Shown here: one piece after another, positions 10,676-42,547 of the stretch | Layout of the letters: each line of letters opens with the position of its first letter | Numbering within the stretch: position 1 is the stretch's first letter | Assembly: GCA_902787575.1 (NCBI GenBank) | Contig: CADAGX010000025.1 | Span: 1 to 51,031, forward strand | Direction of reading: 5' to 3' | DNA length: 51,031 bases | Origin: an uncultured Bacteroidales bacterium | GTDB taxonomy: Bacteria; Bacteroidota; Bacteroidia; Bacteroidales; Bacteroidaceae | Made by a program: the position numbers and the translations under genes | The notes under the pieces: model-generated | Seen by the model: only the letters and a program-made list of their open reading frames with translations | What the model was told of the DNA's origin: nothing | Databases searched by the model: none

Positions 10676-10753
10676 GCTACGTGTCGCAAGACGAAATGCG
10701 ACACGTAGTTTTAGTTCGAGCGACGTGTAGATATTTAAAAACTACACGTCACT
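10676..10753. repeat. 22-bp-period repeat array, locus 2
   Basis: Cores begin at 10676, 10698, 10720 and 10742, each 22 bp apart and alternating in orientation. The first pair forms a perfect 12-bp stem (10677-10688 with 10697-10708), preceded by A-rich and followed by T-rich DNA, so it can end transcription from the channel gene. The last core overlaps the stop codon of the convergent RlpA-like gene (10749-10751). The array fills the whole gap between the two convergent genes. Confidence 0.8.
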
Positions 10754-11132
10754 TTTTTGTTTCCACGCTGTCGCTCTTCGCCTCCACCCGTGTCACCTCC
10801 ACCGGCGTGTGGCCAGCCCGTATGAAATCGAGCTGTGTGGCTGCTGCCCGGCTCAGGTCGATGATGAAACGCTTCGCGAATGGTCCGCGGTCTGTAACCT
10901 TCACAATCACTTCTTTGTCGTTTCGCAGGCTGCGAACCTTGAGCAGTGTGCCAAAAGGCAACCTGCGGTGTGCGCAAGTCATGCTGTCCTTGCGATAGAC
11001 GCCACCGCCAGCCATTCGTCTTCCCTCGAAACGATCTGAATAATACGATGCACGCCCGCGGATGGTGTCTTGTGCAAAAGCACCTGTTGCCACCAGCAGC
11101 ATCACGGCCGTCAGTATGAAAAATTTCTTCAT
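10749..11132 (-). CDS. RlpA-like double-psi beta-barrel protein
   Basis: A small exported protein of 127 aa. A signal peptide (MKKFFILTAVMLLVATGAFAQ) precedes a double-psi beta-barrel domain: GRASYYSDRFEGRRMAGG, then AHRRLPFGTLLKVRSLRN, VKVTDRGPF and IDLSRAAA. The conserved His of 'CAHRRLPFGT', the Asp of 'VTDRGPF' and the 'DLSRAAA' segment match RlpA, a lytic transglycosylase acting on denuded peptidoglycan glycans in some bacteria. It has no SPOR domain and is much shorter than E. coli RlpA, as is usual for single-domain Bacteroidetes members, so enzyme activity is inferred. It is monocistronic, convergent with the efflux operon and divergent from the polysaccharide export pair. Confidence 0.88.
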   Translation of the reverse strand: MKKFFILTAVMLLVATGAFAQDTIRGRASYYSDRFEGRRMAGGGVYRKDSMTCAHRRLPFGTLLKVRSLRNDKEVIVKVTDRGPFAKRFIIDLSRAAATQLDFIRAGHTPVEVTRVEAKSDSVETKK

Positions 11133-11348
11133 TAAAACGTGTTTCGGGAGGTGATACCAGCTGGTTTCGCTCCCTTTTTCGCCGCAAGTTTAGTGCTTTT
11201 GCCTCACATACGCAAGAAATCAAACGTTTTTTTGGACTTGTTAAGATTTTATAAATAAGAAAACATTCCTTCGATGATGGCTTACGGCATGGTAAATCTC
11301 TAAACCGACACCAATAACTCGACAATTCGAAAGAAAAGCATGTTTCCT

Positions 11349-11379
11349 TTTGCATTTCACGCGTTTTTTCGTACCTTTG
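11349..11379 (+). promoter_or_regulatory. Promoter of the polysaccharide export pair
   Basis: TTTG at 11349-11352, a 19-bp spacer, then TACCTTTG at 11372-11379. It lies 20 bp ahead of the ATG at 11400 and inside the longer open frame beginning at 11340, which rules out that longer start. Confidence 0.72.
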
Positions 11380-11399
11380 CCGCAAAATATCGCAAAAGT

Positions 11400-12221
11400 A
11401 TGATTCGTAAAGTCCGACATATTCTTTTATTCTTGTGTGCTGCAGGGCTAATGGCTTCCTGCGTTTCCAACAAGAAAATGATTTATCTGCAAGGTGCCAA
11501 AGACACGTACGCCGTGCCGCAGGAGATTCAGCAAGCCTTTGAAATGACCGTGCAACCAGACGATCAGTTGGCCATTTCTGTGTCCAGCAAACGCCCGGAA
11601 CTGATACAACCATTCAACAATAATACGCTGATTGGCAGTGGCGCTAATTCTATGTCGGGCACAAATACGGCCAACACCACGTCGGGCGTTTCATACTTCC
11701 AGGTGGACAAACAGGGCAACATCGAGTTCCCGATTTTTGGCACGCTGCATGTGGGAGGTCTTACCACGCGCCAGGTGTCAAACCTCGTGCAGAAAAGATT
11801 AATCGACGAGAACTACATCAAGGACGCCGTGGTGAATACCAAGGTGATGAGCTTCAAAGTGACGGTTCTAGGCGATGTGAGGAATCCTGGCATGCAGACT
11901 TATCAGGGCGAACGCCTGACACTTCTGGAGGCTTTGGGTAAGGCCGGCGACCTGACAAACACGGCATTGCGCGAAAATGTGCTTGTCATGCGCGAAGAGA
12001 ACGGCCAGCGTACGGCATACGAAGTGGACTTGCGCAGCCATGAATCTGTGTTTGGCTCACCTGCCTACTATCTCCAGCAAAATGACGTGGTTTATGTGCA
12101 GTCAAACAAGAGCCAGCGAGTGAAAGGAAGTACGGGTTACACGTGGATTTCCGTGGGTAGCACCTTGGTTGGCGTAGCCGTTTCGGTCATCTCGCTGATT
12201 ATCGCAATAAAAAGAAGTTAA
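11400..12221 (+). CDS. Wza-like polysaccharide export lipoprotein
   Basis: An outer-membrane export channel component for capsule or exopolysaccharide, 273 aa from the ATG at 11400. It begins with a lipoprotein signal (MIRKVRHILLFLCAAGLMASC, lipobox ASC). A polysaccharide export domain follows (FEMTVQPDDQLAISVSSK... YFQVDKQGNIEFPIFGTLHV), then an SLBB-type domain (KVTVLGDVRNPGMQTYQGE.. LTLLEALGKAGDL). A C-terminal hydrophobic helix (about 245-268, VGSTLVGVAVSVISLIIAIK) resembles the membrane segment by which Wza forms its outer-membrane pore. It is 9 nt upstream of the Wzc-like kinase, a standard pair. No glycosyltransferases or flippase follow, so the substrate must be made by genes elsewhere. 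Confidence 0.9.
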   Translation: MIRKVRHILLFLCAAGLMASCVSNKKMIYLQGAKDTYAVPQEIQQAFEMTVQPDDQLAISVSSKRPELIQPFNNNTLIGSGANSMSGTNTANTTSGVSYFQVDKQGNIEFPIFGTLHVGGLTTRQVSNLVQKRLIDENYIKDAVVNTKVMSFKVTVLGDVRNPGMQTYQGERLTLLEALGKAGDLTNTALRENVLVMREENGQRTAYEVDLRSHESVFGSPAYYLQQNDVVYVQSNKSQRVKGSTGYTWISVGSTLVGVAVSVISLIIAIKRS

Positions 12222-12230
12222 GTTACACGA

Positions 12231-14636
12231 ATGGAAACAAACCTCAATATGCCCGGCTCTCAGGCGTTGCAGAATGCGGAATCTCAGGAGGGAGAAGCAT
12301 TTTCGCTGCGTGACATCTTGGATATCTTTCTCAATCACTGGAAGTGGTTCCTCTTCTCGGCAATAGTTTGCCTTGCGCTGTCGCAATTGTATCTGGCCAC
12401 CAAGTCGCGAATCTACCAGCGGCAGGCTGTAATCCTCGTTAAGGAAGATGCAAGCACCGGCGGCCGGAAGCAGCCTATCAACACGGATGCTCTGATGCAA
12501 CTGAATGGCGTGATGGGAAACACGAGTGTGAAGAACGAACTCTACATCCTACGTTCTTACCAGCTGATGCAGGAAGTGGTGAAAGACCTGCAGCTCGACA
12601 TTCAATACACCTGCAAGCAGGGACTTCGCACCGTCTCGCTTTACAAGGAACGGCCTTTCACCGTAACGTTCCACGAGGAGATAAAATACGCCACGCAGTT
12701 CAAACTCACCATCAGTAACGCTCGCGAGGGCGTTATCTCGGATGTCCGCTATGGTAAGAAGTTTGAGGAAGTGGAATTCACCAAGACGATTCCTTTCGGA
12801 CAGACGGTGGCAACTCCGTTCGGTAACATCACAATCGAGACAAACGCCAAGACGCTGGAACTCTTCGAAGGCAAGACCATCACCGTGACGCGGCAGACAT
12901 TGGAGACGGCGGCCATCGTAACGTGCAATAAGATTGAAACTTCCGAGATGGACAAGATGAGCACGCTTGTCATCATCACGTGCCAGGACACAAACATACA
13001 GCGGGCAGACGATATTCTCAACTCCATCTTGGAAGCTTACAAGCGCAGTATTGTGAAAAGTAAGAACCAGATGGCGCAAACCACGGCTGAATTCATCGAC
13101 GAACGCATTAAGATAATCAGCGTGGAACTGGGCGAAGTGGAAGGTGAGTTGGCTGACTACAAACAAAAGCACGGGGTGGTGGATGCTAAATCGAGCGCCA
13201 GCGACTTCCTCAACCAAACGTCGATTGCACACCAGCGCACGATACAAGCAGAGAGCCAATACGCAATGCTGCAGTATTTGGTGGATTATATCATGCAAAA
13301 CAGCGAGGGAAATACCCTGATTCCAACTATGGGAGGCATTGCTGATCCAGGTATTATGAACCAGATCAACCTGTACAATCAGCTCATGCTCAAGCGGAAT
13401 GCGATAGCCGAGAACGCGGGAGACGACAGCCCGTCCATTGTGGATATGGAAAGTGACCTGCGGCAGATGCGCACCGCCATCGTGGCATCGCTGAAAGGAT
13501 ACTCGTCGAGCCTAAAACTGCAGGTCGACAAGGCACGGCAGGAGGAGCGCGGACTGACTGGCACACTTGCTTCCTTGCCTCAGAAGGAGAAGGACATGAT
13601 AGACATCAGCCGTCAGCAGGCAATCAAAGAGACGCTCTTCACATTCTTGCTTAACAAACGCGAGGAAACTGCACTTCAGTTGGCTATCACCGAAGCTAAC
13701 ATTAGCATTGTGGAGCATCCCTTTGGCAGCAGCGCGCCTGTGGCACCGAATAAAAAGATGTTCATGTTGGTGGGTTTAATGCTCGGACTTGGACTTCCCT
13801 TCGCGTTCTTCTACATAATGAATATGCTAAACATGGGCGTTCGCGGGCGAAAGGATGTGGAAACATACACCACAATTCCCGTTTTGGGTGAGATACCTCG
13901 CCGCAAGGACGGCTTCGACGATTCGGATATCGTGGTGGACGAAAACGGCGACGATGTGCTGGGCGAGGCGTTCCGCATGCTACGTTTCAGCATGGGCTTC
14001 ATAAATCGGGAAGCACGCGTCATCATGTTTACCAGCACCATGCCGGGCGAAGGAAAAACATTCATCAGCCGGAATTTCTCGGCCACACTTTCGCTGGCGG
14101 GAAAGAAAGTAATTCTCATTGACGCGGATATCCGTAAACGAACTCAAAGCAAACTTTATTCGTCGGGACGTCGGGACGGACTGACTTCCTACCTTAGTGG
14201 TGCAACTTCCGACCTGCAGAGTCTGATTGTTCGCGGGGACAAAGATTACGATTTGGACTTCCTGCCTGCTGGTATTATGCCTCCCAACCCGGCAGAGTTG
14301 CTGATGAGTAAAAAACTTGACGAGTTGATAGAGGAACTGAAGAAGGCTTACGATTATATTGTCATAGATAATGTCCCGGCTCAGGCCGTGGCAGATGCCG
14401 GCATCGTGAACCGCGTAGCCGACCTTACCATCTATGTTATCCGTGAAGGCAAGGTTGACCGTCGTTTCCTTCCCGAGTTGGAACGTCTGCATCAGGAGCA
14501 GCGATTCAAGAATCTGTGCATCATTATCAACGATGCGCACTTGGAGAAGAAGAAATATGGCTACGGCTATGGTTATGGCTACGGTGCCAAGGAGGAGAAG
14601 TCCGGCCGAGGCCTCTCGCGCTTCTTTCGCAAGTAA
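12231..14636 (+). CDS. Wzc-like chain-length determinant / tyrosine autokinase
   Basis: An inner-membrane regulator of polysaccharide assembly, 801 aa. Helix 1 (WKWFLFSAIVCLALSQLYLA, residues about 37-57) begins a Wzz domain; long coiled-coil segments fill about 270-480; helix 2 lies near 508-532. The cytoplasmic C-terminus is a BY-kinase. It has Walker A in STMPGEGKTFISRN (about 602-609), Walker A' VILIDADIRK (about 626-635) and Walker B YIVIDNVPA. A tyrosine cluster near the end (KKYGYGYGYGYGAK), followed by a basic tail, is the autophosphorylation site typical of these kinases. It probably works with the Wza-like protein upstream: phosphorylation cycling would control polymer length and export. 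The transcript ends at the terminator at 14709-14774. Confidence 0.92.
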   Translation: METNLNMPGSQALQNAESQEGEAFSLRDILDIFLNHWKWFLFSAIVCLALSQLYLATKSRIYQRQAVILVKEDASTGGRKQPINTDALMQLNGVMGNTSVKNELYILRSYQLMQEVVKDLQLDIQYTCKQGLRTVSLYKERPFTVTFHEEIKYATQFKLTISNAREGVISDVRYGKKFEEVEFTKTIPFGQTVATPFGNITIETNAKTLELFEGKTITVTRQTLETAAIVTCNKIETSEMDKMSTLVIITCQDTNIQRADDILNSILEAYKRSIVKSKNQMAQTTAEFIDERIKIISVELGEVEGELADYKQKHGVVDAKSSASDFLNQTSIAHQRTIQAESQYAMLQYLVDYIMQNSEGNTLIPTMGGIADPGIMNQINLYNQLMLKRNAIAENAGDDSPSIVDMESDLRQMRTAIVASLKGYSSSLKLQVDKARQEERGLTGTLASLPQKEKDMIDISRQQAIKETLFTFLLNKREETALQLAITEANISIVEHPFGSSAPVAPNKKMFMLVGLMLGLGLPFAFFYIMNMLNMGVRGRKDVETYTTIPVLGEIPRRKDGFDDSDIVVDENGDDVLGEAFRMLRFSMGFINREARVIMFTSTMPGEGKTFISRNFSATLSLAGKKVILIDADIRKRTQSKLYSSGRRDGLTSYLSGATSDLQSLIVRGDKDYDLDFLPAGIMPPNPAELLMSKKLDELIEELKKAYDYIVIDNVPAQAVADAGIVNRVADLTIYVIREGKVDRRFLPELERLHQEQRFKNLCIIINDAHLEKKKYGYGYGYGYGAKEEKSGRGLSRFFRK

Positions 14637-14708
14637 AATTCTGGCTCGTACGAAGTGACGGCTTACGTGTCGATTAGGCGACGCATCCATAACGAAATTT
14701 GACATCTG

Positions 14709-14774
14709 AAGCTGCATTTATCCTTCCTTCATCCCCAAATGTAGGAAAAAGAAGGGCAAATGTAGCTTTTTTTG
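14709..14774 (+). terminator. Terminator after the Wzc-like gene
   Basis: AAGCTGCATTT (14709-14719) pairs with AAATGTAGCTT (14758-14768), with an inner CCTTC/GAAGG pairing (14722-14726 with 14751-14755), followed by a run of T. It lies about 70 bp after the kinase stop codon. Confidence 0.7.
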
Positions 14775-14806
14775 TGCAATAACTTGTCTTGTACGCAAAA
14801 GTTTTG

Positions 14807-14814
14807 TATCTTTG
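14807..14814 (+). promoter_or_regulatory. -7 box ahead of the small outer-membrane barrel gene
   Basis: TATCTTTG at 14807-14814, with a CTTG -33-like box at 14783-14786 (20-bp spacer). It predicts an unusually long leader of about 170 nt before the ATG at 14991. Confidence 0.6.
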
Positions 14815-14821
14815 GCATACA

Positions 14822-14990
14822 GAAATGTGCCCACCATGCTTCGCGAAGCAGAAAGGGACGCCAATGCTGCGATTGCGTAGCGCCGGACTCCGGTGTTGCA
14901 CCCACGCATGAACGGTTGGCAACAAGAGAAAATCATCAACTTTACTGCAGGAGGGTGCCCGGCAGACCTTAAAAAAAACTTATACTACAA
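14822..14990 (+). ncRNA. Long structured 5' leader (candidate regulatory RNA)
   Basis: Predicted leader with several strong consecutive hairpins: the palindrome GCTTCGCGAAGC (about 14839-14850); GCTGCG-ATTG-CGTAGC (14866-14881); GCCGG-ACT-CCGGT (14882-14894); and GTTGC/GCAAC enclosing about 19 nt after that. The final stretch before the ATG is A-rich and unpaired. I do not recognise a known riboswitch class. It could be a regulatory leader, or a small RNA transcribed from the 14807 promoter. The remainder of 14637-14990 is the kinase terminator and the promoter. Confidence 0.4.
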
Positions 14991-15473
14991 ATGAAAAAAG
15001 TTTTCTTGGTTATCGTAGCCATGTTTATGGCCGTGGCTGCAAGCGCTCAGAAGGGTGAAATGTCCGTGGGCGGCAATCTGAATTTCGGAATTGACGACGA
15101 CTACAACAATTTTGGTATCGGTCCCAAATTCCAGTACAGCTTTGCAGAAAAGTGGCGTGGTGAGGCTTCTTTCAACTACTTCCTCAAGAAAGACTATGTC
15201 AGCCAGTGGGAACTGAATCTCAACGTTCACTACATCGTGCCCATTGCCAGCACGAAATTCAATTTCTACCCTCTGGCAGGTCTGACGGTGTGGAACAATC
15301 ATGTTAGCGTGGCTGGTTTCAGCGACAACGACACGAACATTGGTTTCAATCTGGGTGGCGGCTTTGAGTATTACATCACAGACAACTTCAAAGCAAACAT
15401 CGAAGGAAAATATCAGTGGACCGATCCGAACGCTCGTGGCGTCATTTCCATCGGTGCTGCATATGTTTTCTAA
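14991..15473 (+). CDS. Small outer-membrane beta-barrel protein
   Basis: A 160-aa exported barrel. The signal peptide is MKKVFLVIVAMFMAVAASAQ. Alternating hydrophobic/polar strands follow with aromatic girdles: MSVGGNLNFGID, GIGPKFQYSFAEKWRGEASF, WELNLNVHYIVPI, FNFYPLAGLTVWNN, NIGFNLGGGFEYYI and a terminal strand ending in Phe (GVISIGAAYVF), as expected for Bam-inserted barrels. About eight strands fit the OmpX/OmpW-sized class. It belongs to the generic 'porin family / outer membrane beta-barrel' group in Bacteroidetes; the specific function is unknown. It stands alone between its own promoter and a strong terminator. Confidence 0.85.
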   Translation: MKKVFLVIVAMFMAVAASAQKGEMSVGGNLNFGIDDDYNNFGIGPKFQYSFAEKWRGEASFNYFLKKDYVSQWELNLNVHYIVPIASTKFNFYPLAGLTVWNNHVSVAGFSDNDTNIGFNLGGGFEYYITDNFKANIEGKYQWTDPNARGVISIGAAYVF

Positions 15474-15499
15474 GCAAACCGACTGAGGTATAACAAATG

Positions 15500-15539
15500 G
15501 TGCGAGGTGCTTTCTCAGAAAGTACCTCGCACTCTTTTT
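15500..15539 (+). terminator. Terminator of the outer-membrane barrel gene
   Basis: GTGCGAGGT (15500-15508) pairs with ACCTCGCAC (15524-15532), extended inward by GCTTTCT/AGAAAGT, then TCTTTTT. It is a strong intrinsic terminator 26 bp after the stop. Confidence 0.85.
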
Positions 15540-15642
15540 CACGCCACGTGTAGTGTCGCTTCACGCCACACGTAGTTTTGCTTCACGCGACGTGTAGTTT
15601 TTCGTCATGCCACGCGTCGCATTTTTCCTGTCCCCGTGTCGC
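15540..15642. repeat. 22-bp-period repeat array, locus 3
   Basis: Cores start at 15543, 15565, 15587, 15609 and 15631, each 22 bp apart (GCCACGTGTAGT, GCCACACGTAGT, GCGACGTGTAGT, GCCACGCGTCGC, TCCCCGTGTCGC). Units often begin CACGC. The array begins directly after the T-run of the terminator and ends 4 bp before the stop codon of the convergent phosphodiesterase gene. Confidence 0.82.
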
Positions 15643-15646
15643 AGTT

Positions 15647-16138
15647 TCAGCGGGGAATTTCGATGACTTCCAAATCACGGAAGGCACCGTCATCGGCCGT
15701 GAATCGTACGAGCGTTCGCACCTGATGCCACCCTTGCAGCCCGGCGGCGCCTGGGTTGATGTGCAGCAGGCCGAGTTGCTTGTCGAACTCCACCTTCAGG
15801 ATATGACTGTGCCCGCTGATGAAAAGTTTGGGTGGGCGAGCGAAGAGCAACGGGCGGATGTGCGGCTCGTAGCGGCCCGGATAACCACCGATGTGTGTCA
15901 TCAGCACGTCGGCGCCCTCACACGTCCAGCGTAGCCGCTCCTTGTAGAGTCGACGGAGGTCGCCGCCGTCGCAGTTGCCACATACGGCACGGAAGGTGCG
16001 GAATGCACTCAGCCGCTCAGCAACCTCCGTGGAGCCGATGTCCCCGGCGTGCCAAATCTCGTCGCACTCCTCGAAATACGTCAGGTAGCGGTCGTCCCAG
16101 TAGGAATGCGTGTCACTCAGAAGTCCGATGCGTTTCAT
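15647..16138 (-). CDS. YfcE/MJ0936-type metallophosphoesterase
   Basis: A cytoplasmic two-metal phosphodiesterase, 163 aa, the normal length for the YfcE/MJ0936 family. All metal motifs are visible: SDTH (residues 8-11), HAGDIG (about 30-35), GNCD (about 54-57), a His in LMTHIGG (about 80), and GHSH (about 109-112). Physiological substrates of the family are uncertain. The start overlaps the MATE transporter stop by 4 bp (ATGA), so it is the second gene of that transcript and translationally coupled. Confidence 0.9.
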   Translation of the reverse strand: MKRIGLLSDTHSYWDDRYLTYFEECDEIWHAGDIGSTEVAERLSAFRTFRAVCGNCDGGDLRRLYKERLRWTCEGADVLMTHIGGYPGRYEPHIRPLLFARPPKLFISGHSHILKVEFDKQLGLLHINPGAAGLQGWHQVRTLVRFTADDGAFRDLEVIEIPR

Positions 16139-29382: not shown

Positions 29383-30828
29383 ATGTCGAATAGAGGTGAT
29401 TTGGCCACTTTGGTGGTGCAGAACTTGGGCTTCGAGCCCACTCCGGAGCAGGAATTAGCCATCCGCCAGTGTGCCGACTTCCTGCTGTCGCGGGCAGACG
29501 ACCAAGTGTTCTTGCTTACCGGATATGCCGGCACGGGCAAGACGTCGCTCGTCTCTGCAGTGGTGAAGACGTTGCGCGAGCTTAAGCAACCCGTCATGCT
29601 GCTGGCACCTACGGGCCGTGCCGCCAAGGTCTTCTCGCTCTACGCCCAGACACCGGCTTACACCATCCACAAGAAGATTTACCGCCAGAAGTCGCTCTCC
29701 GACCCCGATACGTTTCAGGCCAATGTGAACCTCCACAAGCATACACTATTCCTTGTGGACGAGGCGTCTATGATAGCAAACGACGGGCTTGGCAGTTCGA
29801 TGTTTGGCACGGGCCGCCTGCTGGACGACCTGATACACTACGTCTATTCGTGCGAAGGCTGCCGCCTGATGCTGATTGGCGACACGGCGCAGCTGCCTCC
29901 GGTGGGTAAGCAGCAGAGCCCGGCACTCAGTACACCCGTGTTGCGCGGCTACGGATTGCAGGTGCATGGCACCTGCCTGACGCAGGTTGTCCGGCAGCGA
30001 GGCGCCTCGGGCATCCTCTGGAATGCCACACAGTTGCGCCTCTGCCTCTCCGAGATGCAGGTCTTCGCCTTCCCGCGGCTGAGACTGAATGGCTTCCCGG
30101 ACATCAGGGTAATGCCAGGCGACGAACTTATCGAGGCGCTCGAGGACAGCTTCTACCATGTGGGACACGACGAGACAATCGTCATCACCCGCTCGAACAA
30201 GCGGGCCAACATCTTCAACTGCGGCATCCGGGCGCGCATCCTCGACTTCGAGGAAGAGCTTTGCGGTGGCGACCAGATAATGGTGGCCAAGAACAACTAT
30301 TTCTGGGCAGAGCAGAATCGCGACGCGAGCGAGCCACGTGGACACGAGGCGATGCCCTTCATTGCCAACGGTGACGTGGCAGTGGTCATTCGCGTACACA
30401 ACGAACGGAAGTTCTACGGCTTCCGCTTTGCCGACGTGCTGCTGCGCTTTCCCGATTACGATAACCGCGAGATGGAAGTCACCGTGTTGCTCGACACCCT
30501 GCAGAGCGAGGCACCGGCACTGACACACGAGGCGCAGGAGCAACTCTTCCAAGCCGTCTGGGAGGACTATCCCGAAATCAAGGATCGCCGCCTGCGGGCA
30601 CAGCGCATCAAGGAGGACATCTACTACAATGCACTGCAGATAAAGTATGCCTACGCCGTCACCTGCCACAAGGCACAGGGCGGACAGTGGAGCCACGTCT
30701 ATATAGACCAAGGCTACGTCACTCAGGAGATGCTCTCGGCCGACTACTTCCGCTGGCTCTACACGGCTCTCACACGCGCCACCGAACGCGTCTATCTGGT
30801 CAACTGGCCGGCGGCACAAGTGGAGTAA
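29383..30828 (+). CDS. RecD-like superfamily 1 DNA helicase
   Basis: 481 aa ATP-dependent DNA helicase lacking RecBCD-specific N-terminal domains. Helicase motifs in order: Q-like LGFEPTPEQELAI; Walker A TGYAGTGKTSL (about residues 47-57); Ia LLAPTGRAAKVF; Walker B/II LFLVDEASMI; III LMLIGDTAQLPPVG; IV region VVRQRGASG; V YAVTCHKAQGGQW (about 425); VI YTALTRATERVYLVNWP at the C-terminus. This corresponds to an AAA_30 plus UvrD_C_2 arrangement common in Bacteroidetes. The likely role is in DNA repair or recombination; the partner is unknown. It is divergent from the rsmD operon and its end faces nagB. Confidence 0.9.
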   Translation: MSNRGDLATLVVQNLGFEPTPEQELAIRQCADFLLSRADDQVFLLTGYAGTGKTSLVSAVVKTLRELKQPVMLLAPTGRAAKVFSLYAQTPAYTIHKKIYRQKSLSDPDTFQANVNLHKHTLFLVDEASMIANDGLGSSMFGTGRLLDDLIHYVYSCEGCRLMLIGDTAQLPPVGKQQSPALSTPVLRGYGLQVHGTCLTQVVRQRGASGILWNATQLRLCLSEMQVFAFPRLRLNGFPDIRVMPGDELIEALEDSFYHVGHDETIVITRSNKRANIFNCGIRARILDFEEELCGGDQIMVAKNNYFWAEQNRDASEPRGHEAMPFIANGDVAVVIRVHNERKFYGFRFADVLLRFPDYDNREMEVTVLLDTLQSEAPALTHEAQEQLFQAVWEDYPEIKDRRLRAQRIKEDIYYNALQIKYAYAVTCHKAQGGQWSHVYIDQGYVTQEMLSADYFRWLYTALTRATERVYLVNWPAAQVE

Positions 30829-30846: not shown

Positions 30847-30946
30847 GGCATGCGTCGCATGCGTTCACGCCACACGTCGCATGCGTTCACGCGACGCGTC
30901 GCAAGTCGTCACGCCACACGTCGCTGTGAAGCAAACTACGTGTGGC
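30847..30946. repeat. 22-bp-period repeat array, locus 4
   Basis: Five cores start at 30847, 30869, 30891, 30913 and 30935, each 22 bp apart (for example GCCACACGTCGC, GCGACGCGTCGC, GCCACACGTCGC, ACTACGTGTGGC). Whole 22-bp units are nearly identical at 30855-30876 and 30877-30898. It begins 18 bp after the helicase stop codon and lies between the convergent helicase and nagB genes. Confidence 0.85.
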
Positions 30947-31032: not shown

Positions 31033-31824
31033 TTACAGGTTGTCTCGCTCTATGTCGAGGAAATACTTGTACGTGCCGTGCTTCAGTTCGTCGGTGGCCG
31101 CTTCGTCGCAGACGATGATAGCGCGCGGATGGAGCTGCAGGGCGCTGATGGTCCACTCCTGGCTGACAGCGCCTTCGATGGCGTGCTTTAGGGCGCGAGC
31201 CTTGTTGTGGCCGTTGCAGACGATGAGCACCTCGCGGGCTGCCATCACTGTACCCACGCCTACGGTCATGGCCGTGTGGGGCACCTGGGACGTGTCGCCA
31301 CCGAAGAAGCGGCTGTTGGCAATGATGGTGTCGGTGGTGAGGCTCTTCACGCGTGTGCGGCTGCAGAGCGAGCTGAATGGCTCGTTGAAGGCGATGTGTC
31401 CGTCGGGACCAATGCCGCCCATGAAGAGGTCGATGCCGCCAGCGGCCTCGATGGCTTTCTCGTAGTCGGCACACTCCTTGGCCAAGTCGGGTGCATTGCC
31501 ATTGAGGATATGCACGTTCTCTTTCTTTATGTCTACGTGGCTGAAGAAGTTGGTCCACATGAAGCTGTGATAGCTCTCGGGATGCTCCTCGGGCAGACCG
31601 ACATACTCGTCCATGTTGAAGGTGACAACGTGCTGGAAACTTACCTTGCCGGCTTTGTAGAGTTCCACAAGGTGCTTGTAGAGACCAAGCGGAGAACTTC
31701 CGGTGGGGCAGCCCAGAATGAACGGCTTCTCGGCCGTGGGTTTTGCCGCATTGATGCGTGCGGCTACATACTCGGCAGCCCAGCGACTGAGCTCCGCGTA
31801 GTTAGGTTCAATAATTACTCTCAT
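31033..31824 (-). CDS. nagB: Glucosamine-6-phosphate deaminase
   Basis: Converts glucosamine 6-phosphate to fructose 6-phosphate and ammonia, linking amino sugars to glycolysis. 263 aa, against 266 in E. coli, with the catalytic residues at identical numbers: Asp72 (NMDEYVGL), Asp141 and His143 ([13 protein letters not shown]) and Glu148. The substrate-phosphate loop is [12 protein letters not shown]. It is encoded 43 nt after the TolB-like lipoprotein gene on the same strand. No nagA or regulator is nearby, so how it is controlled is not visible. Confidence 0.97.
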
Positions 31825-36411: not shown

Positions 36412-36423
36412 CAAAATAATATG

Positions 36424-36431: not shown

Positions 36432-36484
36432 CCCGCCCTTAAGGGAAAAATGACGAAATAAAGAACAAAATAACTAATAAAACT

Positions 36485-36706: not shown

Positions 36707-36710
36707 AGGA

Positions 36711-36750
36711 AACAGGCAATGCAACGTCAAGTAGCATTGCCTGTTTCTTA
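36711..36750 (+). terminator. Terminator of the DUF2795 gene
   Basis: AACAGGCAATGC (36711-36722) pairs perfectly with GCATTGCCTGTT (36734-36745), then TCTTATCTCTTC. Confidence 0.8.
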
Positions 36751-36787
36751 TCTCTTCTCAGCAGGCAACACATAATAAACAGAATAC

Positions 36788-37963
36788 ATGACTACATACC
36801 CATCAAGGCATTTGTCCTTCTTCGCATTATTGCAGAGAGGCTGGAGGTCGGTCCTCCCCATTGTTTTTGTAAGTCTACTCTCTTTGACAGCTACCTGTTC
36901 TGACGCAGGCTCTGCCGCCACACCGATGCTGAAAGGCAAGATTTCTTCCTACAACGAGTTCGGCGCTGCTATGTTAGATTTCACCCAAACAGACATGACC
37001 AAGGCTGGATTCACATTCGGCGATGTCATCAGCATCACCATTGACGGGAACATAGAAATTGTCATGCCTTACTATGACGGCTACTACGCCCGTAATGGCG
37101 AATACCTGTGCGTTGCCTATCCCACCTATCCCAGCATCTGTTTCACGGCCAATAACACCGGGCTGCCTGAAGAGTTCTTGGGGCTCGAGGGGCATGACAT
37201 TATCGTTAGGATGAAAGAAAAGGGTGGCAAAATCGATGTACAACAGGCTCTGAGCATGAAGTACAACAACGACCGCGCGAATTATTCCGACATCTCTGAC
37301 GAGGAGTTTGCCAATGCACGTACCGTGAGCGTTGGCGAAATCACAAGCCGTATTCTCTACCGTAGTTCATCGCCTTTCTGCAACGAAATCAATCGCGCAT
37401 ACTATGTGTCGGAGTATATGGAACGTGAAAAGGTAAAGACCGTGCTTAATCTCGCTGATACCGAAGATAAGATGCTCTCTTACGACATGCCATCCTACAG
37501 CCGTAAACTCTGGGAGGGAGGTCATGTGATACTATGTCCTCTGAAGGCAGACCCCACAGCAGACGACTATAACAAACGGCTGATAGATGCCTTGAAGGAA
37601 CTTCCGTCACATCCAGCCCCTTATCTCGTGCATTGCATGGAGGGAAAGGACCGCACTGGATATGTGTGTGCACTGCTTGAGGGTTTATGCGGAGCCTCGT
37701 ATGAAGAGATAGTGGCCGACTATCTGATCACCTACAATAACTATTACAAAGTCAATCCGGTAAAAGACTCCACTCTTTGCATCACTCTTGTGTCGTTGAG
37801 ACTCAACCCATGCCTCATGTATTATGCAGGTATTAACGACGAAGCACAACTGCCCGACGCTGACTATGCAAAAGCATTCTCCAGCTTTTTGCTTTCACAT
37901 GGTATGAGCCAGCAGCAACTGGATACCCTCATTCAGGCTTTGACTGTTTCAAAACCGCGATAA
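36788..37963 (+). CDS. Exported tyrosine-protein phosphatase
   Basis: 391 aa. The N-terminus has a hydrophobic export segment (SVLPIVFVSLLSLTATCSD), possibly a lipoprotein with Cys37. Residues about 48-155 form a small beta-barrel domain (AMLDFTQTDMTKAGFTFGDV..., ending in an EGHDIIVRMKEKGG turn) resembling the C-terminal domain of SAM hydroxide adenosyltransferases. Then comes the phosphatase: RILYRSSSPFCNEINRA, VKTVLNLADTEDKM, and the P-loop HCMEGKDRTG (His282-Gly291, nucleophile Cys283, Arg289). The two-domain layout with a lysine in the P-loop is that of bacterial Y_phosphatase3-type enzymes, which act on phosphotyrosine and sometimes phosphoinositides. It has no obvious partner gene nearby. 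Confidence 0.87.
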   Translation: MTTYPSRHLSFFALLQRGWRSVLPIVFVSLLSLTATCSDAGSAATPMLKGKISSYNEFGAAMLDFTQTDMTKAGFTFGDVISITIDGNIEIVMPYYDGYYARNGEYLCVAYPTYPSICFTANNTGLPEEFLGLEGHDIIVRMKEKGGKIDVQQALSMKYNNDRANYSDISDEEFANARTVSVGEITSRILYRSSSPFCNEINRAYYVSEYMEREKVKTVLNLADTEDKMLSYDMPSYSRKLWEGGHVILCPLKADPTADDYNKRLIDALKELPSHPAPYLVHCMEGKDRTGYVCALLEGLCGASYEEIVADYLITYNNYYKVNPVKDSTLCITLVSLRLNPCLMYYAGINDEAQLPDADYAKAFSSFLLSHGMSQQQLDTLIQALTVSKPR

Positions 37964-38015
37964 TCCTTTTTGCAGTCGCACAGATTGTGCAAGTATCTAT
38001 AAGGTATTAGGCTGC

Positions 38016-38060
38016 AGCGAGAGAAGGAGACAGACGCCGGCGCCGCCTCTTTCTCTCGCT
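38016..38060. terminator. Hairpin between the phosphatase and winged-helix genes
   Basis: AGCGAGAGAA (38016-38025) pairs with TTCTCTCGCT (38051-38060), with a GC-rich interior (CGCCGGCG). It lies between convergent gene ends; the T-tract is weak, so the terminator role is probable but not certain. Confidence 0.5.
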
Positions 38061-38103
38061 TAGCCGCTCCCAAAAAGGGAAGTGGAACGTTACACTGAAT
38101 CTG

Positions 38104-38397
38104 CTACTTGGTTTTCACCTTCAAGTAGCTCTTCAGCGCTTCGACGTATTCCTCGAAGGCTTTCACGCCCGCAGGCGTGATGCGGCAGAGGGTGCAAGGC
38201 TTACGGCCCTTGAAAGTCTTTTCCACTTCTATATAGCCCGCTGCCGAGAGTTTGTCTATCTGCACGCTCAGGTTGCCTGCCGTGGCTCCGGTCTGTTCTC
38301 GGATGTAAGGAAACTCGGCTTCCTCGGTACTGATGAGCAGCGAGACGACAGCCAGGCGGAGCTCCGAGTGAAGCAGTGGATCTAACGGTTTGAACAT
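38104..38397 (-). CDS. Winged-helix transcriptional regulator (HTH_34-like)
   Basis: 97 aa. A single winged-helix domain of the MarR-like type used by small regulators: LHSELRLAVVSLLISTEEAEF, the recognition region EQTGATAGNLSVQIDKLSAAG, and the wing YIEVEKTFKGRKPCTLCRIT, with a C-terminal helix for dimerisation (FEEYVEALKSYLK). No ligand domain. It is encoded 12 nt after the membrane protein gene at 38410-39036. This regulator-plus-membrane-protein pairing is common in Bacteroidetes and suggests that the regulator controls its own operon. Confidence 0.87.
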   Translation of the reverse strand: MFKPLDPLLHSELRLAVVSLLISTEEAEFPYIREQTGATAGNLSVQIDKLSAAGYIEVEKTFKGRKPCTLCRITPAGVKAFEEYVEALKSYLKVKTK

Positions 38398-38409
38398 GTC
38401 CGAACCTCC

Positions 38410-39036
38410 TTATTTCTGGTTTTGCATGAAAATCGTCACACCGGGTACAATCAGCCCAATCAAGGCCACCGCTGCCATTACATAGAGCTGCGCATGTCCG
38501 GTGAAATGTAGCGCGCCAAAGAATCCTCCGAGACCAGCTAAGAGTCCGCACACCTGAATGGTACGGTTCCGAATGACGAGACCTGTGATGGTTGTTCCCA
38601 TTCCGAAACAAAGCGAGATGATGCTGGTGATGCAGCCAAAAACACAGACCTTTGGCATAATCAGTTCCATTGGCAGCATTCCGCAGCCAATAAAACCGAG
38701 TATCATGCCCATGCCACAGCAGAATACTCCAAAGGTAGACCACACGTGACCGATGACCTTCCCGACAAAAGTAGTTGGAATGTTCTCTCTGTGTTTGTCA
38801 ATTATCCAGTTGCCTGCGTAGCCTACCAACCATAACACGGCCCAGAGCATATTCCATGCCGGTCCGCCATGATTTTTCCATAGGTAGGCGATGAACAACG
38901 AGAATAGGACTACACAAAGTCCCCACCAGATAAGCGGTATTGCCGAATTCTTGTTCATGGTGCGCTGGCTGCGCTCTATTGATTCTCTGATTATCTCCAG
39001 ACTGCGCTCGGCAGTCAGATTGTTGTTTTCTTCCAT
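38410..39036 (-). CDS. Multi-spanning membrane protein paired with the winged-helix regulator
   Basis: 208 aa from the ATG at 39036 (MEENNNLTAERSLEIIRES); the longer frame to 39147 begins beside the promoter and is not used. The N-terminal 30 residues are a cytoplasmic helix (SLEIIRESIERSQRTMNKNS). About six membrane segments follow: IPLIWWGLCVVLFSLFIAYL, PAWNMLWAVLWLVGYAG, TFGVFCCGMGMILGFIGCGM, VCVFGCITSIISLCFGMGTT, CGLLAGLGGFFGALHF and LYVMAAVALIGLIVPGVT. No transporter motif is visible; function unknown. It is probably co-transcribed with the regulator downstream. Confidence 0.75.
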   Translation of the reverse strand: MEENNNLTAERSLEIIRESIERSQRTMNKNSAIPLIWWGLCVVLFSLFIAYLWKNHGGPAWNMLWAVLWLVGYAGNWIIDKHRENIPTTFVGKVIGHVWSTFGVFCCGMGMILGFIGCGMLPMELIMPKVCVFGCITSIISLCFGMGTTITGLVIRNRTIQVCGLLAGLGGFFGALHFTGHAQLYVMAAVALIGLIVPGVTIFMQNQK

Positions 39037-39144
39037 TGTTGTTTCTCTTTTTAGAGGTTTAGTGTTTGTTTTTACTGTTCTCTGGTCTCGTCCGCGCTCC
39101 TGCAGAAAGCACGTCTTTGACCATTTGTGTCCGGTACACGGCGG

Positions 39145-39152
39145 CAAAGGTA
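39145..39152 (-). promoter_or_regulatory. -7 box of the membrane protein/regulator operon
   Basis: Minus-strand TACCTTTG, giving a leader of about 105 nt to the ATG at 39036. Upstream, 39153-39608 contains no gene: AT-rich DNA to about 39340 with nothing recognisable, then the inverted-repeat element. Confidence 0.55.
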
Positions 39153-39359
39153 GAGAAGTTTATAATATAAACCAAATTATTTTGCAAAATATTTGTTTCT
39201 CAGCCCGTAATTTAACATTTCGTAGGCGAAAACTGGAGAAAAAGATCTTGCGAAGGGGCGTAAAAGACATGATGAAAGCGACAAGTCTCGGGTGCTGCAT
39301 CGCTTTTCTGAGCATGATTCAAAAGAAAGAAAACATCTACCCACTAAAATTTTTTCGCG

Positions 39360-39561
39360 AAAAAACCTACATGCCTACACTTGAGACCCGTATTTCCTTG
39401 TGCCACAATTCGTTTCTGGCGTGTAGGTTTTGGTGTAGGCACGCGTTTTTAGTGTAGGTTTTGCCTACACGGCAGGGCTTGCCTACACTCGAACCTACAC
39501 TGCTGTAGTGTGCATGGTTACAACAACTTAACATTCCAAAGTGTAGGATTGTAGGTTTTTT
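39360..39561. repeat. Inverted-repeat element, copy 2 (MITE-like)
   Basis: The ends at 39360-39380 (AAAAAACCTACATGCCTACAC) and 39541-39561 are 21-bp inverted repeats with two mismatches, matching the ends of the copy at 200-368. Inside, paired GTGTAGG units at 39421 and 39433 oppose CCTACAC units ending at 39488 and 39500, and GTGTAGG-TTTTG-CCTACAC (39452-39470) forms a small hairpin. The outer left flank is a TTTTTTCGCGAAAAAA palindrome (39350-39365). The interior differs in sequence from copy 1 but keeps the same plan. Confidence 0.7.
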
Positions 39562-39608
39562 GGAGGAAAAACTTTTAGGAGGCAAACAGGCGGCACTCCG
39601 CTCGCCAG

Positions 39609-40139
39609 CTATTCGACGCGGCACATATGGTAGCCCATGCGGCGGAGCTGTACGGCAACGCCCATCAGATAAAGCTGGTGGAGGCTGCTGACGTAGGCAT
39701 CGAAGGCTTGTTTCGTGCCGGGCTCGATGGCTTGGCGTCGCAGAAGGTTGTGGGTCCGCGAGGCACACTCGCCGGCCAGTCGCTCGAGGGCTGCGGAGTC
39801 GTCGCCGTGGAGTTGCAGCACGTCCTCGCGAATGTATTCGTCGAGCTGGTCGTAGCCGCGCTTGTCGCGCATGTAGGCGTAGAGATCAGTGATGTGTGAA
39901 TAGACTTCCCAATCCTCTTCCCACCAACAGGCAACGGCCATGCCAATGTACATCATCCAGCCCAGCGAGGCTGTGGGGTAGGCGGCAAACTCGCGAATGC
40001 CGTCGGGCAGGTAGGCGCGAGCCAGTTCTTCCCATTTCTCTTCCACGTCAGGGCATTGCGGCAGTCGCTCGTCCACTTCGTGCATCCACTGCAGATACTG
40101 GTGCAGGTCGGTACGCAGGGTTTCTTCGTACGTTTTCAT
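39609..40139 (-). CDS. Conserved Bacteroidales protein of unknown function
   Basis: 176 aa, mostly alpha-helical and soluble, starting MKTYEETLRTDLHQYLQWMH. It has a central hydrophobic segment (AAYPTASLGWMMYIGMAVACWW) that is too aromatic and acidic-flanked to be a clear membrane helix. It then has YAYMRDKRGYDQLDEYIREDVL and a C-terminal helical pair (AFDAYVSSLHQLYLMGVAVQLRRMGY), both quoted only in part. No domain I can name. It has its own TAACTTTG box 5 bp upstream of the ATG and ends next to the inverted-repeat element. Confidence 0.68.
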   Translation of the reverse strand: MKTYEETLRTDLHQYLQWMHEVDERLPQCPDVEEKWEELARAYLPDGIREFAAYPTASLGWMMYIGMAVACWWEEDWEVYSHITDLYAYMRDKRGYDQLDEYIREDVLQLHGDDSAALERLAGECASRTHNLLRRQAIEPGTKQAFDAYVSSLHQLYLMGVAVQLRRMGYHMCRVE

Positions 40140-40143
40140 GCTG

Positions 40144-40151
40144 CAAAGTTA
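40144..40151 (-). promoter_or_regulatory. -7 box of the 39609-40139 gene
   Basis: Minus-strand TAACTTTG at 40144-40151, ending 4 bp before the ATG; predicts a near-leaderless message. Confidence 0.5.
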
Positions 40152-40237
40152 CGTTTTTTCTGGCTAAATGTATGCCATACTCTACAATTTTTCGTAACTT
40201 TAACCTGCGGTTTTAGTTACTCATGCTCGGAAAAGCT

Positions 40238-40343
40238 AAAATAAATTTTGCTTTTCACTCGCTTAATCGTAACTTTAACCTGCGGTTTTAAAAATAAATT
40301 TTGCTTTTCACTCGCTTAATCGTAACTTTGCAGCAGACAAACA
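40238..40343 (+). promoter_or_regulatory. Tandemly duplicated promoter of the 40363 gene
   Basis: A 53-bp unit occurs twice. Both copies keep TTTG-N19: 40247-40250 with TAACTTTA at 40270-40277, and 40300-40303 with TAACTTTG at 40323-40330. Only the downstream copy has the full TAnnTTTG consensus; the upstream one has lost the final G. A third partial copy (GTAACTTTAACCTGCGG) lies at about 40194-40210. Confidence 0.75.
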
Positions 40344-40362
40344 TCCTAATGCAGATACAGAC

Positions 40363-42429
40363 ATGGGAAGACGGAGACATCTGACGGCCACACTGCTGGC
40401 AGCGCTGACGGCTGTGACGCTGGTGTGTGCCTCGTGCTACAAGATTACTTTCATTCGTCAGGCGCACCGCGTAGTGAAGGGTGAGGCGTTCGAGGGCCGA
40501 CTGTCGATACACGACACGGGTAACACGAACGGTGGCACGTACCACGTATACGGACTCTTTGGCATTCGCGTGCCAAAGGGATGGAGCGTAGACGGGCAGG
40601 TGGTGATGACGCAGGTGGCAAAGCCTACCACCGACACGGGCGACCCGAACTACAACACTACGATAGAGCGTCGTCTCATTCCGAGTCAGGCCTACACACG
40701 GCTGCTCAACACCGACTATCCGCGAGAGGGCTATACGTGGCTTGGATTCGTCACGCAGACGGACTTCAAGACGCTGCTCAGCGGCGAAGACCCCGACAAA
40801 AGGGTGGACAGCATCTACGTCTCGTACCGCATTCAGACTTCGGCCGAGCACACGGGCACGTACTATCTCGACTATGTCTGCGGACAGATAGACCACGCCA
40901 AGTTGGGTCAGCTGGCTACGGCCGACCGCGACTGGACTACACGTGCCGCAACCTTTCAGGCCGACAACATTTCTAACGTCTATCACACCGACACCAGCAT
41001 ACGCCTGACCAATGCCGACGGCTCCACAGACGAGCCGGGCGATGCACTATGGGCCACGCCCGACGACTGGCAGTTGCAGCCCATGACGAGCGCCACCACC
41101 GATGGCACGGCACGCGCATACCGTGACCTGAAGTACAACGCACTCTTCACGCGGACACGTGGGTGGAACGGAGGAGACGGAGTGCTCACCGTGGGACTGC
41201 CCAACGGAGACGTCTTGTGGACTTTCAACGACAGTTTTTATGGCACCGTTGGAGCCAACCGCGCACGTGGCAACTGCAACTTCCCACGCAATAGCATCAT
41301 GGTGCAGAAGGCGCACGACGGAGCGTTGGGCGAGACGGAGCAGGACCTTGTGTGGCTGGCAGACTACGTCAATTGGCGGCAACCTTCGCGCGAACGATAC
41401 TTTCATGCACGCACGCACCTCAGGCACCCCGAGGGAGAAAAGACAGAAGCCGAGATAAAAGCCGGAGATATCGACCAGACGAAAGTTTACTGGTCGGGCG
41501 ACGGAACGGTCTACGACGGCAAACTGCAGATGATATGGATAGGAGTGGAGGCGGCCGAACTGCGCAACCTCGATATCGCACTGGCCACCTACAGCCTCGA
41601 GGGCAACGAGCCGCAAAACTATTATCTGCCACGGCTTGCCGACTATCTGCCGCAGTCGGGAGACTATCTCTACCGCGAAAGCCACACACCGGCCGTCTGG
41701 CAGGGCTCTTGCTCCTACGGCTCTACACTCTGCGAAGACCCCGACGGCCATACCTATCTCTATGCCACCGAAGGCACCCGTCCCGTGGTGGCACGCACAC
41801 AGACGCACAGCCTCTACAGTCCATGGCAGTTCTACGTCAAGGATGCTCAGGGGCGCTGGACGTGGCAAGACAGCTACCCCACAGACGATGAGCGACAGCG
41901 CTCTGGCATCATGGCATCAGACGACTATGCCGTTATGCAGCCTTGGGTGTTCCGTCGTGGAGAATGGTACTTCATGGTGGCACAGGCACCCATCTTCTCG
42001 CCCCTTGTCTATATCTATCGCGCCCGCACACCTTACGGCCCCTTCGACGAGCGACGCCTCCTTGTGCGCCTGCCCGACCATCTCGACAAACTCGGACCGC
42101 AGCAGTACCATTGGCTCTACATGGTGAACCTCCATCCGGCTCTCGCTCGGCAAGGCGAACTCGTGCTCTCCACCAACAGCGACCCCGACGACTTCTGGAG
42201 CAACTTCAACGACCCTGGCTCGGCCGACTACTACCGCCCTTACTTCTACCGCGTCTTCGACTGGCAGCGCCTTTATCCCGACCTTCCGGCCGACCCAGTC
42301 GAGACACCCGCTGCCGCGCGCAGTATCACGTCTGACCGCACGTCCACCTACAACCTGCTCGGGCAGCCGGTACGCCATCCGCGGCACGGGCTCTACATCC
42401 GAGGCGGACACAAGGTGCTGATAAAGTAG
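40363..42429 (+). CDS. Exported beta-propeller protein (DUF5005/GH43-like) with sorting-type tail
   Basis: 688 aa. The signal sequence MGRRRHLTATLLAALTAVTLVCASC ends in a possible lipobox (ASC, Cys25). Residues 30-190 are a beta-rich domain of unknown type. From about 245 a five-bladed-propeller-like domain begins: YNALFTRTRGWNGGDGVLTV, LPNGDVLWTFNDSFYG and NFPRNSIMVQ resemble DUF5005/glycosidase-like propellers. Later blades include GSCSYGSTLCEDPDGHTYLY and YMVNLHPALARQGELVLSTN. The C-terminus (YNLLGQPVRHPRHGLYIRGGHKVLIK, shown here in pieces: NLLGQPV, HGLYIRGGHKVLI) is a type IX-like sorting tail. Having both a lipobox and a sorting tail is unusual. A carbohydrate target is likely; catalysis is not proven. 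Confidence 0.68.
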   Translation: MGRRRHLTATLLAALTAVTLVCASCYKITFIRQAHRVVKGEAFEGRLSIHDTGNTNGGTYHVYGLFGIRVPKGWSVDGQVVMTQVAKPTTDTGDPNYNTTIERRLIPSQAYTRLLNTDYPREGYTWLGFVTQTDFKTLLSGEDPDKRVDSIYVSYRIQTSAEHTGTYYLDYVCGQIDHAKLGQLATADRDWTTRAATFQADNISNVYHTDTSIRLTNADGSTDEPGDALWATPDDWQLQPMTSATTDGTARAYRDLKYNALFTRTRGWNGGDGVLTVGLPNGDVLWTFNDSFYGTVGANRARGNCNFPRNSIMVQKAHDGALGETEQDLVWLADYVNWRQPSRERYFHARTHLRHPEGEKTEAEIKAGDIDQTKVYWSGDGTVYDGKLQMIWIGVEAAELRNLDIALATYSLEGNEPQNYYLPRLADYLPQSGDYLYRESHTPAVWQGSCSYGSTLCEDPDGHTYLYATEGTRPVVARTQTHSLYSPWQFYVKDAQGRWTWQDSYPTDDERQRSGIMASDDYAVMQPWVFRRGEWYFMVAQAPIFSPLVYIYRARTPYGPFDERRLLVRLPDHLDKLGPQQYHWLYMVNLHPALARQGELVLSTNSDPDDFWSNFNDPGSADYYRPYFYRVFDWQRLYPDLPADPVETPAAARSITSDRTSTYNLLGQPVRHPRHGLYIRGGHKVLIK

Positions 42430-42459
42430 GAATCCTTCCTGCGTGCTGCAAACTTCTTT

Positions 42460-42547
42460 CACGCCACACGTCGCATGAGCTCACGCGACGTGTGGCGGAG
42501 ACGAATGCGACGCGTCGCATGAACGCTTGCGACGTGTGGCATCAAAA
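42460..42547. repeat. 22-bp-period repeat array, locus 5
   Basis: Cores start at 42463, 42485, 42507 and 42529 (GCCACACGTCGC, GCGACGTGTGGC, GCGACGCGTCGC, GCGACGTGTGGC), exactly 22 bp apart. The third core is a perfect palindrome. The array lies 30 bp after the propeller-protein stop and before the 3' end of the convergent tRNA-Leu gene. Confidence 0.83.

Follow-up and report, generated by a model that had tools for sequence, protein, structure and literature searches.

The 51,031-nucleotide contig CADAGX010000025.1 of an uncultured Bacteroidales bacterium (GCA_902787575.1), which was analysed at its full length as the window and whose genome we label G000, carries between its genes short arrays of a near-palindromic 12-bp core that recurs with a step of 22 bp. 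Which factor would read such evenly spaced sites? From the association between promoters and arrays we infer that the arrays are probably binding sites for HU-HIG proteins (PF18291), clustered in helical phase, that each paralogue would recognize a core of its own, and that these proteins would regulate their own genes and coat intergenic DNA, a reading to which we assign a probability of roughly 0.6. The core, placed at five loci of the window by a preliminary description of this DNA, is present at all five:

59..114, no strand: 22-bp array with clear cores at 59, 81 and 103 and a degenerate core at 37, close to the edge of the window and contig
10676..10752, no strand: 22-bp array with cores at 10676, 10698, 10720 and 10741, the final step being 21
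15543..15642, no strand: 22-bp array with four clear cores and a fifth, degenerate one at 15631
30847..30946, no strand: 22-bp array with clear cores at 30869, 30891, 30913 and 30935 and a degenerate core at 30847
42463..42540, no strand: 22-bp array with four cores

The pattern RCNACRYGTNGY matches 16 times in the window and 11 pairs of matches lie exactly 22 bp apart, compared with a mean of 1.35 cores (maximum 5) and of 0.0 such pairs in 100 first-order Markov sequences. The strict core GCSACRYGTSGC is found 300 times in the 2.65-Mb genome and its reversed-pattern control nine times. We read 451 kb of G000, consisting of two contig parts and the window, and found 27 arrays with at least two cores. 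Arrays with the 22-bp step recur throughout this sequence, and 20 of the 27 possess four to five cores if up to two mismatches are allowed for each added core. The step had been described as exact, which is correct for the 11 window pairs and too strict for the 21-bp step from 10720 to 10741 and for steps of 21 or 43 bp elsewhere in the genome. Likewise, the 10-bp linkers were described as variable and are not free, since TTT follows 13 of the 17 AGT half-sites, and among 98 linkers GTGAACGAAA, read on either strand, occurs five times. The claimed alternation of core orientation was not recovered, as perfect reverse complements account for 2 of 65 neighbouring core pairs (4.4 expected) and identical cores for 9 of 65 (4.8 expected), both inside the shuffled range (maximum 12). 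A pairing of neighbouring cores as hairpins, and selection for it, is thus unsupported because their complementarity does not exceed chance. Half-sites are also drawn from a few discrete words, namely CGC, GGC and AGT with their own tails in G000 and, read by eye, CCAT, CCTT and GCAT in the relative G024, and one such word seemingly switched as a block between G024 and its sister species G012.

Between species, the period is fixed and the sequence is mostly free. The G000 core is abundant in its own species only, none of 60 relatives of the genus having more than 15 copies, a level like that of the control. When 84,980 species, excluding this genome and its closest records, were scanned with one 20-base spelling of the core, the matches listed comprised five places, none of them with a 22-bp repeat. 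A link to phages was rejected, since a search of IMG/VR returned just three contigs with one core match apiece. Arrays with a 22-bp step were nevertheless present in all ten relatives sampled (40 kb each), built on cores such as TTTCTGCWGCAGAAA (G022), ACACTTAAGTGT (G032), AGGTTAACCATT (G024 and its sister G012) and GTCTCACCGGTGAGAC (G003). The word ATGGTTAACCAT has 28 copies in G012 and 27 in G024; none of the other 137 genomes of the genus has more than two. At a threshold of at least 28/44, lag 22 yields 16 loci in the 451 kb of G000, 24 in 400 kb of ten same-genus genomes and none in 389 kb sampled from 14 further families of the order, and nine other lags average 0.6-1.1 loci. In a second sample, 397 kb from 20 further genomes of the genus contained 23 lag-22 loci, and 348 kb from 20 genomes of other genera in the same family contained 11. 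The control lags 19, 23, 25 and 26 gave no locus in either set, lag 21 gave 10 and 7. At a threshold of at least 27/44, at least one locus was found in 25 of 31 genus genomes, of each of which between 17 and 451 kb were read, and in 8 of the 20 genomes from other genera, G117 and G120 having theirs in A+T-rich sequence only. Palindromic units beyond those of shuffled sequences (p<=0.05) characterize 46 of 82 arrays, compared with 8/43, 8/20, 7/23, 3/12 and 5/14 at control lags. The word CGTG recurs in the arrays of 13 of 32 genomes (shuffled maximum 8) and is not universal. A common TTGGCAA-like linker motif, suggested by eye, was rejected, as its 5-letter words occur in 2-5 of 32 genomes compared with shuffled maxima of 3-8.

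In Bacteroidetes, the HU-type proteins have undergone a large expansion represented by HU-HIG. This group (PF18291, close to TIGR01201, HU_rel) is a longer branch of the HU/IHF superfamily of nucleoid proteins and has expanded in this genus. The G000 protein encoded on contig C8 scores 78.1 bits against PF18291 (cut-off 26.2), 23.5 against PF00216 (cut-off 22.4) and 64.1 against TIGR01201, slightly below the cut-off of 68.6. A sequence search with one protein found no relative of solved structure (best E 0.86). In 25 genus genomes, 2-19 PF18291 matches are listed per genome, a count that takes in canonical HU genes, with best E-values down to 8e-28. In 15 of 16 genomes from other families, 1-4 matches are listed and none has an E-value below 3.5e-12, whereas G071 has 12 matches listed, the best at 7.9e-26.

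Among the matches listed we picked 82 HU-HIG promoters, 72 of them non-redundant, and scored an array at a threshold of at least 20/33 at lag 22; not counted in the 72 are the six genes of G071, which belongs to another family and showed no lag-22 array at them, and two array-bearing G012 orthologues of G024 genes. A 22-bp array precedes 40 of the 72 genes, while 15 other lags reach 1-8 of 72. Upstream of control genes the lag-22 array was found in 21 of 256 cases (Fisher 6e-17 compared with HU-HIG), a conservative comparison because any HU-HIG genes among the controls were retained, and upstream of genes with a gap of at least 200 nt in 20 of 83 (p=5e-5). None of five canonical HU genes possesses one. 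In G000, the near-identical HU-HIG genes on C8 and C14 carry three ACRYGT cores spaced 22 bp apart between about -119 and -53, immediately behind a TAACTTTG box that fits the Bacteroidetes -7 consensus, and the third gene (C9:88924-89304, L169) has an internal TAG and no upstream array. All three genes read in this genome (L168 on C8, L169 on C9 and L170 on C14) lie near contig ends. The genus genome G007, which has no strong HU-HIG gene, has no array (at least 27/44) in about 64 kb compared with 69 in 1.25 Mb of genus sequence; this is consistent with the HU-HIG link, in a small sample. The idea of an oligomeric DNA-binding protein, voiced in the preliminary description, is supported, and the promoter association adds HU-HIG as its candidate. 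At G024:C31:137423-137555 (L075), just downstream of an HU-HIG gene, 6-bp words of the TAACCT/TAACGC type are repeated.

The cores mostly differ between paralogues of one genome. We compared 45 HU-HIG genes with arrays, treating G012 and G024 as one genome, and none of the 69 same-genome pairs below 70% protein identity share array words, compared with two of nine pairs above 70%. In different genomes, the genes G001:C33 and G017:C19_77585 (67.7% identity) share 37 9-mers in their arrays and three in their flanks, so that the array was kept and the flank was not. Moreover, 53 of 89 dispersed arrays match an HU-HIG promoter of their own genome, where 11.5 would be expected from other genomes, and 14 of 35 compared with 3.05 expected still do if G000, G012 and G024 are set aside. 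In 160 kb of G024, all three HU-HIG genes among the matches listed have a close upstream array, with three different cores, and these match 14, 3 and 2 of 18 dispersed arrays, respectively. A core read from an HU-HIG promoter of G017, the one core for which such a prediction was tried, has 12 copies in that genome, located at the promoter and at three further loci in steps of 22 or 44 bp. G014 has two copies of it, at an HU-HIG promoter, and of the other 137 genomes two have a single copy each. In G025, the promoter of the one strong HU-HIG gene carries the core of the genome.

The sister species G012 and G024, which differ by 6.3% substitutions over 102 kb of alignment, show that the core is held, the linker drifts and the phase is kept. 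Of the 16 GGTTAACC-type arrays in G024, ten lie in aligned sequence and all ten are present in G012 (35 cores). By distance from the dyad, substitutions amount to 0/140 at positions 1-2, 4/140 at 3-4, 12/140 at 5-6, 1/70 at 7 and 30/280 at 8-11, compared with 9.2% of 2176 positions in the array flanks. The arrays were picked via their TTAA centres in G024, which conditions the G024 sequence and not that of G012. Two gap columns fall inside the aligned arrays.

With respect to genes, the arrays are intergenic, and in G024 they favour 3' ends in tandem gaps and occupy convergent gaps at a higher rate. The preliminary description had placed them between convergent genes, and this rule holds in the window only, where the following features surround the arrays:

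9267..10670, plus strand: outer-membrane efflux protein (PF02321), its 3' end 5 bp ahead of the array at 10676
10749..11132, minus strand: DPBB_1 protein, which we take to be RlpA-like, converging on the array at 10676
14991..15473, plus strand: outer-membrane beta-barrel protein (PF13505), left of the array at 15543
15495..15537, plus strand: hairpin followed by a run of T, with the look of an intrinsic terminator, adjoining the array at 15543 and separate from it
15647..16138, minus strand: calcineurin-like phosphoesterase (PF12850), right of the array at 15543
29383..30828, plus strand: AAA_30/UvrD_C_2 helicase-like protein, left of the array at 30847
31033..31824, minus strand: glucosamine-6-phosphate isomerase-like protein, presumably nagB, right of the array at 30847
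40363..42429, plus strand: DUF5005 protein, left of the array at 42463
42655..42737, minus strand: tRNA-Leu, right of the array at 42463

The region downstream of nagB carries a 22-bp array of its own, unlike that of G000 in sequence, in the relative L037, and by eye the 3' gaps of nagB in L037 and L062 both contain 22-bp repeats of different sequence. Outside the window, arrays occur in all types of gap, which the preliminary description had itself named as evidence against its rule. According to our own gene caller, whose calls are approximate, the 27 G000 arrays lie in tandem (9), divergent (8) and convergent gaps (6, four of them in the window), inside predicted open reading frames (2) and at contig ends (2). 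Among the gaps that measure 60 bp or more, 105 are tandem, 37 divergent and 29 convergent; the gap around one of the six convergent arrays is 59 bp long. In ten relatives, where arrays were detected by lag 22 at a threshold of at least 27/44, unlike in G000, the 27 arrays comprise 17 tandem (92 gaps; three of these arrays share one long unannotated gap of G032), 5 divergent (29 gaps), 3 convergent (18 gaps), one coding and one edge case. In the 160 kb of G024, arrays occupy 11 of 45 tandem, 6 of 11 convergent and 4 of 13 divergent gaps, including three arrays (positions 100001-140000) that were also counted in the ten-relative set, and 9 of the 11 tandem-gap arrays are located at most 52 bp from the 3' end of the upstream gene. 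The two G000 arrays within predicted long open reading frames (C2:39307-39384 and 140119-140152) reflect either gene-call errors or true coding copies. A gene for an EcoRI-type adenine methyltransferase (PF13651, L023:7137-8186) adjoins the divergent-gap array at G000:C1:146591, and one convergent gap of G016 (C12:121660-122096, L081) holds a very long 22-bp array with two different units side by side.

How could HU-HIG proteins act on such arrays? HU-type dimers bend DNA. Each core would be a near-palindromic site for one dimer, and the 22-bp step, corresponding to two helical turns, would align adjacent dimers along a single side of the helix. An array of four to five sites could then be filled cooperatively, with the dimers bending the DNA in phase into a compact complex. 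A paralogue that reads its own core ahead of its own gene would probably be autoregulated, and the arrays in HU-HIG promoters fit this, while the copies dispersed in intergenic DNA fit the nucleation of nucleoprotein patches that may be architectural or insulating.

Several observations weigh against the assignment to HU-HIG. At the applied threshold, 32 of the 72 HU-HIG promoters lack an array, the gap-matched control brings the odds ratio, 14 without gap matching, down to about 4, and HU-HIG genes may merely be sited in array-rich regions. The sole strong HU-HIG gene of G022 has no promoter array, which leaves the dispersed core of this genome unexplained. Some HU-HIG pairs at 70-80% identity have similar promoter flanks and unrelated arrays, which implies that specificity would have to switch fast. 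In the single-core genomes G000 and G025, the match between promoter and dispersed arrays is automatic once a promoter array is present. Among the 19 genomes with both data sets, G003, G008, G014, G022, G023, G028 and G105 show no such match and G032 is marginal, with one of four dispersed arrays matched by two words only; from each of these genomes just 1-4 dispersed arrays and frequently an incomplete set of HU-HIG genes had been read. Array density also varies, as 6 of the 31 genus genomes had no array in the 17-20 kb read. Finally, the sequences are not wholly private: the array core of G001 is similar to that of G000 (ACRYGT with CG; the linkers differ), and ACACGT is frequent in the arrays of 8 of 32 genomes.

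The strongest competing explanation, which we still regard as unlikely, is that the arrays are sites of another protein, be it a transcription factor, a methylation-dependent reader or a partition-type protein, and that HU-HIG genes are merely among its targets. Many cores are centred on 6-bp palindromes and resemble ordinary dimer sites, arrays also precede other genes (20 of the 83 with a long upstream gap), and G022 has arrays with none ahead of its sole strong HU-HIG gene. A single regulator, however, predicts one core per genome, whereas paralogues carry unrelated cores (none of the 69 pairs below 70% identity share words) and the dispersed families match these paralogue-specific promoter cores.

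We consider it quite improbable that the arrays are selfish or mobile repeats without host function, that is, minisatellites or elements like miniature inverted-repeat transposable elements (MITEs) or the repetitive extragenic palindromes (REPs) served by REP-associated tyrosine transposases (RAYTs), which would have met HU-HIG genes by chance or insertion preference. Such an origin would suit the species-private expansion (300 cores compared with at most 15 in each of 60 relatives), the intergenic location mostly distant from start codons, and the inverted repeats AACATCTACTGCC/GGCAGTAGATGTT that frame two G024 arrays. One element, however, does not account for one period with many sequences, and core positions evolve far more slowly than the flanks between G012 and G024. 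Among the 27 G000 arrays, 0 of 285 pairs share linkers beyond the shuffled-linker null and the flanks look unrelated; copy-paste of whole arrays is unsupported, as no copied linker blocks were found. The RAYT profile (PF01797, Y1_Tnp) has a single match in G000 (37.0 bits, C1:149956-150246), which is not expanded, and in 17 array-bearing relatives it gave no match in ten (e.g. G001, G012, G016, G024 and G025), a weak one in two and a strong one in five; a RAYT as partner of the arrays is hence unsupported. Inverted repeats frame some G024 arrays only, and the arrays do not fit the pattern of MITEs and BrickBuilt, with their conserved leader, tail or terminal inverted repeats and copied blocks. 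In this genome, the two-core arrays of C31 at about 45648 (L162) and 184855 (L167) are framed by AACATCTACTGCC/GGCAGTAGATGTT as a longer inverted repeat, and the left half of the AACATCTACTGCC frame alone occurs at 111840 (L074).

A shared family of terminators had been suggested as well. Runs of at least four T occur at 15 of 54 array edges compared with 13 of 172 linker readings, forming ATTT tails. T-runs were present at 5 of 21 edges on the side where transcripts would end and at 8 of 25 on the other side, and at 7 of 23 and 4 of 19, respectively, in a second test, which relied on a crude location of the core centres and on gene contexts entered by hand from the G024 placement. Intrinsic terminators are unsupported because the runs show no bias toward transcript ends and a separate hairpin with a T-run (15495-15537) stands beside the array at 15543. 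Bidirectional terminators or RNA 3'-end hairpins are accordingly very improbable, even though palindromes can fold and 9 of 11 tandem-gap arrays of G024 closely follow a 3' end, since neighbouring cores are not complementary beyond chance and arrays also lie ahead of HU-HIG genes and in divergent gaps (8/27 in G000, 5/27 in the ten relatives, 4/21 in G024).

We compared the arrays with characterized systems. The likeness to REPs and bacterial interspersed mosaic elements (BIMEs), drawn in the preliminary description, applies to the layout and fails for hairpin complementarity (2/65) and an accompanying RAYT. Both consist of palindromes that are private to a species, lie scattered between genes and have copies next to a candidate partner gene, yet the present arrays have a near-strict 22-bp phase, no hairpin complementarity, no matching RAYT and an HU-type candidate partner. 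RIB/RIP elements are REP clusters with a site for IHF, which has one conserved site type; like the arrays on the reading proposed here, they place sites for an HU/IHF-superfamily protein between genes across the genome. The present arrays differ in having many cores, arranged in phase and apparently with a separate set for each paralogue. Plasmid iterons likewise comprise a small number of phased copies, each about 22 bp long, that one protein binds, whereas the arrays are dispersed through the chromosome, at about 150 loci if 27 in 451 kb is typical. CRISPR repeats (clustered regularly interspaced short palindromic repeats) are separated by unique spacers of about 25-40 bp; CRISPR arrays were rejected because the linkers are 10 bp long with recurrent sequence. 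DNA uptake sequences, which consist of one conserved, unphased word common to a genus, were rejected as well, since the core is high-copy in this species only (61 genus genomes) and phased at 22 bp.

Porphyromonas gingivalis belongs to the same order as this genome. Its BrickBuilt repeats are described as MITEs of one sequence family, intergenic 23-nt tandem repeats scattered through the genome at 19 loci with 1 to 22.8 copies and, at many loci, a leader and tail with terminal inverted repeats (PMC4596501). Element 14 lies between PGN_0871 (minus strand) and PGN_0872 (plus strand), the latter listed as a DNA-binding protein of PF00216, and the strands given in Table 1 place the element upstream of this gene (PMC4596501). 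BrickBuilt thus resembles the arrays in being intergenic, scattered and tandem with one copy upstream of a PF00216 gene, and differs in its 23-nt unit, single sequence family and leader and tail, while the 22-bp arrays of G000 have no copied linker blocks. Among the papers listed in our literature search none gave an account of these arrays, with BrickBuilt being nearest, and those listed in a search aimed at HU-HIG showed no DNA target.

To our knowledge, no DNA target has been assigned to HU-HIG proteins, and we know of no system in which the period is fixed, the sequence is free and each paralogue of a nucleoid protein has one word of its own. For this reason we regard the combination, with caution, as categorically new, its parts (site arrays, dispersed palindromes) being of known kinds and its HU-HIG half being predicted. 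Many HU-HIG paralogues would thereby gain a concrete predicted site. The repeat class is defined more by its period than by its sequence, and similarity searches would miss such arrays. If the reading is true, the specificity of the HU fold can be re-coded quickly and this group of bacteria carries species-private chromosome landmarks.

As a tentative extension, which we hold to be possible, the arrays may belong to a family-wide nucleoid system with private codes, in which every HU-HIG paralogue would have its own word, present as 22-bp-phased arrays ahead of its gene and in intergenic DNA, words and paralogues would be replaced quickly, and related species would mark their chromosomes with site sets that are mutually unreadable under a fixed geometry. 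The same design may exist, with a 23-bp step, in G071 from another HU-HIG-rich family of the order, and BrickBuilt may be a further case. In G071, the HU-HIG promoters on C50 and C59 carry sequence repeated every 23 bp (33 and 31 of 44), and 45 kb of this genome at a threshold of at least 26/44 gave four loci at lag 23, none at lag 22, two at lag 20 and three at lag 21, a result noticed post hoc, after lag 22 had failed there. The G071 arrays with a 23-bp step, the first three of which lie upstream of HU-HIG genes, are:

L178, 2367-2502: 23-bp-step array upstream of an HU-HIG gene
L180, 2974-3073: 23-bp-step array upstream of an HU-HIG gene
L177, 4015-4083: 23-bp-step array upstream of an HU-HIG gene
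L179, 262-367: 23-bp-step array

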